Positions 9,476-63,076 of a DNA stretch of 64,000 nucleotides are shown here, in pieces. The stretch is from Natranaeroarchaeum sulfidigenes (GTDB lineage: Archaea; Halobacteriota; Halobacteria; Halobacteriales; Natronoarchaeaceae), in contig NZ_CP064786.1 of assembly GCF_017094485.1 (NCBI RefSeq), positions 682,001 through 746,000 on the forward strand, written 5' to 3'. Every line of letters begins with the position of its first letter. Positions within the stretch are counted from its first letter, which is position 1. Both the position numbers and the translations under genes were made by a program. Below the pieces are notes generated by a model. The model saw nothing but the letters and a program-made list of their open reading frames with translations. It was not told the DNA's origin and ran no database searches.

Positions 9476-9536
9476 ACTTCGAAAAGTGTATTCTTATACT
9501 TCAAAATCTATAGCTATTCACTTCGAAAAGTGTAGT
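9476..9536. repeat. array A: three 17-base elements at 22-base period
   Basis: Units ACTTCGAAAAGTGTATT (9476-9492), ACTTCAAAATCTATAGC (9498-9514) and ACTTCGAAAAGTGTAGT (9520-9536) start exactly 22 bases apart with 5-base spacers. The minus-strand spacer contains TATAAG (9493-9498), the best TATA candidate for the TatD-type gene. The same element recurs at 53026-53086 and 63038-63076. Two helical turns between units suggest binding on one DNA face. Confidence 0.8.
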
Positions 9537-51570: not shown

Positions 51571-51843
51571 GCGAAGGCTGCGAGGCCGATTGCTCACTGT
51601 CCTCCCACCGTTTCTCGTGACGCTTTCGCGTCACTCGAAGGCTGCAAGGCCGATTGCTCACTGTCCTCCCACCGTTTCTCGTGACGCTTTCGCGTCACTC
51701 GAAGGCTGCAAGGCCGATTGCTCACTGTCCTCCCACCGTTTCTCGTGACGCTTTCGCGTCACTCGAAGGCTGCAAGGCCGATTGCTCACTGTCCTCCCAC
51801 CGTTTCTCGTGACGCTTTCGCGTCACTCGAAGGCTGCAAGGCC
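51571..51843. repeat. 64-base tandem repeat, about 4.3 copies
   Basis: Units start at 51571 (slightly diverged), 51635, 51699 and 51763, with a 17-base partial copy from 51827 that forms the last codons of the glutaryl-CoA dehydrogenase-like gene. Each unit ends with the hairpin GTGACGC-TTTC-GCGTCAC (51617-51634, 51681-51698, 51745-51762, 51809-51826). The last hairpin overlaps the gene's stop codon. Confidence 0.92.
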
Positions 51844-52983
51844 AGTGAGATCCTCACCCACGATCAACGAATGAATATCGTGGGTCCCCTCGTAGGTGTA
51901 GACGGTCTCCATGTTGGCCAGGTGGCGCATCGGCGAGTAGTCCGTGGTGATACCGTTCCCACCAAGTATTTCACGAGCTACAGCGGCCTGCTTGCGAGCC
52001 ATCCGAACGTTGTTGCGTTTCGCCATCGAGACCTGCTGTGGACGCAGATCACCGCGTTCCTTCAGGTCGGCGAGCCGGTGGGCCAGTAGCTGGGCCGTCG
52101 TCACCTGCGTTGCCATTTCGGTGAGTTTCTCCTGTTGCAGCTGAAAGCCCGCGATCGGTCGGTCGAACTGCTCGCGATCGGTCGCGTACTCGCGGGCCGT
52201 CTCGAAGCAGTCCCGGGCCGCGCCGACCGCCCCCCAGGCGATGCCGTACCGGGCCTGGGTCAGACAGGAGAGCGGCCCTTTCATCCCCGTAACGTCGAGG
52301 ACGTTCTCCGGCGGAACATAGGCGTCGTCCATCGAAATCTCACCGGTCGAGGACGCCCGCATCGAGAGCTTGCCGTCGATTTCGCTCACCGTTACTCCGT
52401 CAGCGTCAGTCTCGACGAGGAAGCCACGGACCGGCTGACCCTCCGCGGAGACGTCCCGTGCCCAGACTATCGCGAGGTCAGCGATCGGCGCGTTCGTGAT
52501 CCACGTCTTCGTTCCTGTGAGCAGGTAGCCGTCGCCGTCCACCTCTGCACGGGTCTCCATGCTGGCCGGATCGGACCCGTGTTCCGGTTCCGTGAGCCCA
52601 AAGCAGCCGACTGCATCGCCCTGACCGAGCGCGGGGAGCCAGCGGTCCTTCTGGGCGGCGGTGCCGAAGGCGTGGATCGGATACATCACGAGTGCGCCCT
52701 GGACGCTCGCCATCGAGCGAATCCCCGAATCGCCCGCTTCCAGTTCCTGCATGAGCAGGCCGTACGCTCGCTCGCTCACGTTCGCCGAGCCGTAGCCCTC
52801 CAGATTCGGCGCATAAAACCCCAGATCACCCATCTCCTCGATCAGGTGTTCGGGGAACTCGCCGGACTCGAACCACTCCCCGACAGACGGTTTTACGCGG
52901 TCCGCGACGAACTCCCGGGCCGTGTCGCGGATCAGCCGCTCTTCTTCGGCGAGGTCGGCCTCCAGATCGACATAATCGAGCAT
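51823..52983 (-). CDS. gcdH: glutaryl-CoA dehydrogenase-like acyl-CoA dehydrogenase
   Basis: A 386-residue flavoenzyme. It resembles glutaryl-CoA dehydrogenase: GIRSMASVQGALVMYPIHAFG, GCFGLTEPEHGSDPASMETRA, KTWITNAPIADLAIVWARD, KGPLSCLTQARYGIAWGAVGAA and ETVYTYEGTHDIHSLIVG (Glu base). It would oxidise and decarboxylate glutaryl-CoA or a similar acyl-CoA. The start at 52983 lies about 27 bases after a TATTTT element. Array B is just upstream and a 64-base tandem repeat copies its 3' end. Confidence 0.88.
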   Translation of the reverse strand: MLDYVDLEADLAEEERLIRDTAREFVADRVKPSVGEWFESGEFPEHLIEEMGDLGFYAPNLEGYGSANVSERAYGLLMQELEAGDSGIRSMASVQGALVMYPIHAFGTAAQKDRWLPALGQGDAVGCFGLTEPEHGSDPASMETRAEVDGDGYLLTGTKTWITNAPIADLAIVWARDVSAEGQPVRGFLVETDADGVTVSEIDGKLSMRASSTGEISMDDAYVPPENVLDVTGMKGPLSCLTQARYGIAWGAVGAARDCFETAREYATDREQFDRPIAGFQLQQEKLTEMATQVTTAQLLAHRLADLKERGDLRPQQVSMAKRNNVRMARKQAAVAREILGGNGITTDYSPMRHLANMETVYTYEGTHDIHSLIVGEDLTGLAAFE

Positions 52984-53025: not shown

Positions 53026-53086
53026 ACTACAGAACTCGAAGTACAACACTACAGTTCTAGAAGCATTACACTACAGCTATTGAAGT
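53026..53086. repeat. array B: three 17-base elements at 22-base period
   Basis: On the minus strand the units are ACTTCAATAGCTGTAGT (53086-53070), GCTTCTAGAACTGTAGT (53064-53048) and ACTTCGAGTTCTGTAGT (53042-53026), exactly 22 bases apart. A TATTTT element (about 53009-53015) of the downstream gcdH-like gene follows directly, so the array occupies an upstream activator or operator position. Confidence 0.82.
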
Positions 53087-53143: not shown

Positions 53144-53875
53144 TCAGTCTGCCCCTGCCGGATCCACGGCGTCACTGCCGACGGCGGTCTCGGGCTGACG
53201 CAGATCGTCAACGAAGTCGAGCCAGTTCTCGAAGACCAGTTTCGCCTCGCAGGCCTTCGCGTAGTTCTCCTCGGTGATGCCGTCGAGTACCTGCTGAATG
53301 CGCTCGTCGGCCAGATCCTTGCCGAGCGTCACCTCACGAGCAGTTTCGGTGTCGTACTCGGGATGGAACTGGACGCCGAACACCCGATCCTTGCGGAACG
53401 CGTGGATCGAGTAGTCGTTCTCGGCGAGCACCTCGGCACCGGGGGGTGGCGAGACCACCTCGTCGGAGTGGGTCGTAAAGGCGGTGAACCGCTCGTCGAT
53501 CCCGTCGAACAGCCTCGACTCGCCGTGGTGTTCGATCTCGCGGTAACCGATCTCGTACTCGCCCATATCCGCGACTTCGCCGCCGAGCGCGTCGGCCAGT
53601 AGCTGGTGGCCCCAACAGACGCCTAGACACGGCAGCCCTGCCTCGATAGCCCCCTGCACCCACTCTCGCGTGGGTGCGATCCAGTCTTCGTCCCAGTACA
53701 CGGAGACGCGTGACCCTGTGACGACGACCCCGTCGAAGCGCCGGACTTCGGATGGAACCTCGACGTTAGTTACGTCGAACTCCACGAGGTCGGCGTCGAG
53801 CTCCCGGCGGAAATTCCGCCGGTTGTGCTCGGGGTCGTGGGCTGCGTTCAACACGGCGATGCGCGGTCGACTCAT
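53144..53875 (-). CDS. GMP synthase-like class I glutamine amidotransferase
   Basis: A 243-residue amidotransferase domain protein with the nucleophile in LPCLGVCWGHQLLADALGG and the histidine-glutamate pair in VFGVQFHPEYDTE. No synthetase domain is attached. It may hydrolyse glutamine or gamma-glutamyl compounds; no partner lies next to it. A TATA-like CCTTTTAGCG about 30 bases upstream supports the start. Confidence 0.88.
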   Translation of the reverse strand: MSRPRIAVLNAAHDPEHNRRNFRRELDADLVEFDVTNVEVPSEVRRFDGVVVTGSRVSVYWDEDWIAPTREWVQGAIEAGLPCLGVCWGHQLLADALGGEVADMGEYEIGYREIEHHGESRLFDGIDERFTAFTTHSDEVVSPPPGAEVLAENDYSIHAFRKDRVFGVQFHPEYDTETAREVTLGKDLADERIQQVLDGITEENYAKACEAKLVFENWLDFVDDLRQPETAVGSDAVDPAGAD

Positions 53876-63037: not shown

Positions 63038-63076
63038 ACTTCGAATACTGTAGCAATATGCTACAAGTATTGAAGT
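63038..63076. repeat. array C: inverted pair of the 17-base element
   Basis: ACTTCGAATACTGTAGC (63038-63054) on the plus strand is followed by GCTACAAGTATTGAAGT (63060-63076), which is the same element reversed, with the same 22-base offset as arrays A and B. The flanking bases extend the symmetry by one on each side. It lies between the convergent stops of the MFS gene and the Gfo/Idh gene, so it is not upstream of either. Confidence 0.78.

Follow-up and report, generated by a model that had tools for sequence, protein, structure and literature searches.

What do three repeats placed directly before a metabolic gene of a haloarchaeon do? They were preliminarily described, in a 64-kb stretch of the chromosome, as an operator of the adjacent glutaryl-CoA-dehydrogenase-like gene, lying "where an activator or repressor would act". 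The window analysed here is this whole stretch, positions 682001–746000 of a 3.04-Mb single contig, and the repeats at 53026–53086 are referred to as array B.

Array B and the repeated unit

Array B consists of three 17-bp near-palindromes on the plus strand, located by pattern matches at 53026–53042 (ACTACA-GAACT-CGAAGT), 53048–53064 (ACTACA-GTTCT-AGAAGC) and 53070–53086 (ACTACA-GCTAT-TGAAGT). The exact 22-bp pitch of the preliminary description was thereby recovered, and Tandem Repeats Finder independently reported a period of 22 at 53026–53076. The array lies 43 bp from the start of a 386-aa acyl-CoA dehydrogenase gene (51823–52983, minus strand; Pfam and gene call) and 58 bp from the stop codon of a class-I glutamine amidotransferase-like gene upstream that reads in the same direction (53144–53875, minus strand; Pfam and gene call). 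The best PDB matches of the former, which starts at 52983, were glutaryl-CoA dehydrogenases, in agreement with the identity first proposed. A TATTTT element on the minus strand (53013–53008), probably the TATA box as judged from sequence and alignment, is found 24 bp 5' of the dehydrogenase ATG and is kept in the congener. It is 12 bp from the array edge, for which the original estimate of about 10 bases was fair. A 64-bp tandem repeat (51572–51843, 4.2 copies, 99% identity) overlaps the 3' end of the same gene, and about two copies of it occur at the corresponding place in the congener.

Array A (9476–9536, minus strand) is made up of three units at 9476–9492, 9498–9514 and 9520–9536, flanked by genes for an NYN-domain and a TatD-like protein, both on the minus strand (pattern, Pfam and gene calls). 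It has the pitch of array B in opposite orientation, as had been claimed. Array C (63038–63076), absent from the preliminary description, has two units of opposite orientation in the 97 bp that separate the 3' ends of a convergent MFS-transporter gene (plus strand) and GFO/IDH/MocA oxidoreductase gene (minus strand), as assigned by the same means, and is kept in the congener. The pattern ACTACAGNNNTNGAAG occurred 14 times in the window at up to 2 mismatches, as compared to 2.1 ± 1.5 times in shuffles. A symmetric two-unit pattern, RCTWCR-N5-YGWAGY twice at 22 bp, matched arrays A, B and C only, with 5 matches in the window against 0.02 expected. This supports the earlier view that A and B are one element and did not arise by chance. 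In the whole genome the two-unit pattern was found at 49 places at up to 3 mismatches, against 1 for a backward control.

The unit can be described as the 17-bp near-palindrome RCTWCR-N5-YGWAGY followed by a 5-bp AT-rich linker, and 218 strong units gave the 22-bp consensus RCTACA-rWWWT-YGAAGY-rWWWy. With these lengths, copies of the hexamer RCTWCR follow each other at 11 bp and alternate in orientation. The inner spacer was 5 bp in 160 out of 165 half-site pairs, and units were most often 22 bp apart (107 pairs), with further distances of 21 (9), 43/44 (54), 65/66 (12) and 87 bp (3) and few others. No extra half-sites were found at array ends, meaning that the whole palindrome is the repeated unit and the linker spaces its copies. 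On account of this near-symmetry the orientation of a unit means little, so that the difference in orientation between arrays A and B, though real, carries little meaning.

Palindromic units close to 3' ends could also be hairpins or terminators that act in RNA. In 127 of the 218 strong units, however, a CTACA half is paired with a CTTCG half, which breaks 2 of the 5 possible stem pairs; arrays also occur in divergent gaps, and a fixed 22-bp pitch is a property of the DNA helix. An RNA-level element is thus extremely improbable. The broken stem pairs together with the fixed pitch instead suggest recognition of double-stranded DNA by a putative protein, in support of the sequence-specific protein-binding array originally proposed.

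Placement of the arrays in the genome

Arrays were called from patterns and a sequence-only profile in the stretches surrounding the sites, and genes with a simple codon-usage finder. This genome gave 43 arrays of 2–5 units each, and the sole congener searched gave 47. None lay inside a gene in either species, roughly 85% of the fetched sequence being coding. The gaps holding arrays were tandem in 22 cases, convergent in 11 and divergent in 10, the corresponding numbers in the congener being 20, 15 and 12. As a background, 104 comparable array-free gaps of 90–450 bp were collected, of which 51 were divergent, 47 tandem and 6 convergent. Compared to this background, a small sample located near arrays and dependent on the simple gene finder, arrays were enriched in convergent gaps (11/43 vs 6/104, p=0.001 by Fisher's test) and depleted in gaps of the divergent type (p=0.005).

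This distribution does not bear out the operator reading as a general function. That reading amounts to a large transcriptional regulon under one global activator or repressor, bound upstream of promoters. The arrays in convergent gaps would then serve antisense or unannotated transcripts, or have their effect from a distance. The strictly intergenic location of the arrays and a 22-bp cooperative operator geometry are consistent with such a regulon, as are the distance of array B to its TATA-like element, kept in the congener, and a peak in array-to-start distances at 64–80 bp, where 15 were observed and 5.8 expected with a 40-bp exclusion. Sites are nevertheless neither confined to nor enriched at promoters, since they are over-represented in convergent gaps and under-represented in divergent ones, where promoters are most abundant. 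Arrays furthermore mostly avoid the last ~60 bp 5' of start codons, and in tandem gaps this exclusion zone accounts for most of the 64–80 bp peak. No consistent relation of array orientation to gene direction was observed, array A running with its gene and array B against. The flanking genes are mixed and have no obvious common function or pathway. Many looked housekeeping-like by eye (malate dehydrogenase, SRP54, GatB, citrate synthase, EF-2, DnaG, GlyA and others), with Pfam searches covering the genes of the window, and neighbours differ by lineage. On the basis of the convergent enrichment and the missing gene association, the promoter-operator regulon was rejected as the general function, and we regard it as an unlikely account of the arrays. 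A promoter-linked role is possible for a subset of them. A local effect of array B on the adjacent glutaryl-CoA-dehydrogenase-like gene is likewise possible; one doubtful gene call aside, this array is the nearest of all to a start codon.

Exclusively intergenic, convergent-enriched sites would also be expected of a roadblock or insulator, where a bound protein halts RNA polymerase or supercoiling at the boundaries of transcription units. Arrays are in fact often found 0–40 bp past stop codons and outside core promoters. After exclusion of the ~60 bp upstream of starts, however, tandem gaps showed no preference for 3' ends. Roughly a quarter of the arrays are in divergent gaps, where no transcript ends, and there are just ~43 sites in a whole genome. 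This explanation, taken alone, appears improbable.

Regular chromosomal spacing was not supported, as array positions did not exceed random placement in regularity. Called arrays are missing from three stretches of this genome, each about 300 kb long (about 312–617 kb, 870–1186 kb and 1397–1690 kb), and a largest-gap test found these not significant relative to random placement.

Conservation and phylogenetic range

An orthologous array was found in the congener for 41 of the 43 arrays. In aligned pairs, identity was 78% in core columns, 58% in the inner 5 bp, 49% in the linker and 56–71% in the flanks, and conservation of the core but not of the linker is the pattern that would be expected of a maintained binding site. 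Comparison of the orthologous promoters, as the preliminary description had suggested, showed that array B is kept in the congener with the gaps of 43 bp and 58 bp unchanged. Its copy number is not: the congener's array has exactly one 22-bp unit fewer, at unchanged promoter-side spacing, and copy number in general varies between the congeners by whole units. The recurrence of three copies, on which an argument against chance had been built, accordingly holds for arrays A and B but not across the genome, where the range is 2–5, nor for array C with its two.

Being multicopy, intergenic, orientation-independent and patchy in phylogeny, the arrays resemble REP- or MITE-like mobile repeats that spread via intergenic DNA. 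Filled and empty sites in close relatives and long similar copies were, however, not found. Almost all positions are common to both congeners, and similarity between copies is limited to ~10 core bases per unit. Out of eight apparently species-specific arrays, seven were checked in the other genome: three were present but decayed, spaced at 21 bp or just below the calling threshold, one had diverged beyond recognition and three were not alignable across the site. None of the seven gave a clean empty site, and there is thus no sign of recent insertion. Scans of IMG/VR with two exact patterns gave no matches, and a third gave a single match, a G+C-rich tandem repeat unlike the element on a contig of ~48% G+C. 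A mobile origin is very improbable on this evidence.

Outside the genus the arrays are scarce. At up to 3 mismatches the two-unit pattern had zero or one match in each of 96 other genomes of the order, 7 of them from the same family. A scan for exact matches in 84,980 GTDB genomes, a set from which the window's own genome or a very near one may be missing, returned nine isolated single matches in unrelated bacteria. Analogous arrays with another motif were sought in neighbouring genera by a motif-free scan at lag 22, which covered 400 kb from three members of the family and gave one G+C-rich match unlike the element. The same scan of the 64-kb window found arrays A and B.

Profile searches, the E-values of which are rough as they derive from shortened calibrations, revealed arrays of the same geometry and 22-bp pitch, with looser half-sites (ACTAYA...TRTAGT), in two distant haloarchaeal genera of another family. 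A second profile built from these gave 32, 11 and 11 matches in three of its source genomes and a single weak one in a fourth genome of that family, which belongs to genus g41. None of 37 others matched, and four more g41 genomes outside its building set gave independent matches. Palindromic arrays match on both strands and array numbers are therefore lower than match numbers. Across 21 loci, some orthologous pairs included, these arrays were intergenic and orientation-free (13 tandem, 5 convergent and 3 divergent). Their neighbours differ, and overlap with the neighbours in the window's genus is at about chance level. The array system is thus present in three haloarchaeal genera and missing from the closest sampled neighbours. 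One unit pair in g41 (G093, 876219) departs from the 22-bp pitch with a distance of 32 bp, or about three helical turns.

Proposed role and comparison with known systems

The sites are blind to gene direction and identity, enriched in convergent gaps, promoter-avoiding and kept by selection, which makes an architectural or boundary role more likely than control of the adjacent gene. We infer, with a probability of roughly 0.5, that the intergenic arrays of this chromosome, more than 40 in number and array B among them, serve as cooperative sites for one putative sequence-specific, lineage-restricted DNA-binding protein with a mainly architectural or insulating role. A dimer or pseudo-symmetric protein would sit on each 17-bp near-palindrome, and two or more such copies would bind cooperatively as neighbours on one face of the DNA, two helical turns apart. 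Once bound, the protein would organise, bridge or compact the chromosome, or insulate adjoining transcription units, rather than control the adjacent gene. The coincidence at two genes that was read as a promoter operator is a small visible part of a system spanning the genome.

More tentatively, the arrays may belong to a novel haloarchaeal chromosome-organising system. The lineage-restricted protein would assemble on the 22-bp-phased palindromes, conserved at dozens of places between genes, and bridge or partition the chromosome from there, which would make the system a euryarchaeal equivalent of SegB or of bacterial Noc/MatP without ParB. The organisation and segregation of the polyploid chromosomes of haloarchaea are poorly understood. 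More than 40 conserved arrays with a 17-bp consensus make the question directly testable, and array DNA could be used as protein bait. Haloarchaeal histones bind too rarely for genome packaging (PMC10128011).

The nearest working analogue is SegB of the Sulfolobales, which binds at ~39 ChIP peaks and 49 palindromic sites with unrelated neighbours and functions in compaction, looping and segregation (PMC12284271). As with SegB, tens of sites are scattered on an archaeal chromosome by unrelated genes, here 43 arrays whose spacing fits random placement. SegB sites are in contrast 13-bp TCTAGA-S-TCTAGA sequences, single or few together, more than 80% intragenic and clustered near segAB (PMC12284271). 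The arrays are all intergenic and unclustered, with spaced 17-bp palindromes at 22-bp pitch and the logo RCTACA-N5-YGAAGY in place of the TCTAGA core. Based on these differences in motif, spacing and location they were not classified as SegB sites.

The haloarchaeal histones HstA and HpyA bind a few dozen discrete sites, with 11-bp periodicity in HstA-bound regions, and mix features of nucleoid-associated proteins and transcription factors (PMC10128011). Site number and periodicity are thus similar to those of the arrays. The HstA motif is however TCGNSSNCGA, neither protein prefers intergenic DNA, and conservation of the fused histone across halophiles is strong (PMC10128011), unlike that of the arrays. 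Neither that motif nor a ~10-bp A/T periodicity describes the arrays, with their 11-bp alternating hexamers in intergenic DNA throughout. CdrS of Haloferax volcanii, also haloarchaeal, has 18 chromosomal sites, most of them 41–110 nt upstream of a transcription start (PMC8406309). It is a promoter-bound regulator, and CdrS-like RHH genes are present in array-free genomes as well. Comparable, unexplained dispersed motif pairs are described in bacteria, for example in D. alkenivorans, where CCTAC(N)19TAGGT has 57 copies, 55 of them intergenic and 18 between convergent genes, with no functional link to neighbours (PMC5217627). Motif and organism differ from those here, and the pairs are not known to form 22-bp phased arrays of several units whose positional conservation was tested (PMC5217627).

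ParB-type proteins were excluded as array-binding proteins, given that the ParB_N domain (PF02195) was found in none of the six array-bearing genomes. Noc, ParB and MatP of bacteria organise the chromosome from dispersed palindromic sites, which unlike the arrays are not obligatorily arranged at 22 bp between genes. Plasmid iterons are direct repeats at a replication origin beside a rep gene, and the dispersal of the arrays beside unrelated genes may set them apart from these. The Penicillinase_R family, which we take to have a half-site similar to that of the array, had matches in all 20 genomes and was uninformative.

Four RHH proteins of this genome were compared, four further RHH matches lying outside the comparison, and the CdrS-like and NikR-like proteins among them have relatives across the family. 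Within the family, the CdrS-like protein (ERVTLRIPKQQID...) differs little between genomes that have arrays and genomes that have none. Two adjoining NikR-like RHH genes (378181–378990 of this genome) had no close counterpart among the RHH loci compared from two sister genera. This genus-restricted NikR paralogue pair, which has counterparts in the congener, is an unproven candidate for the array-binding protein.
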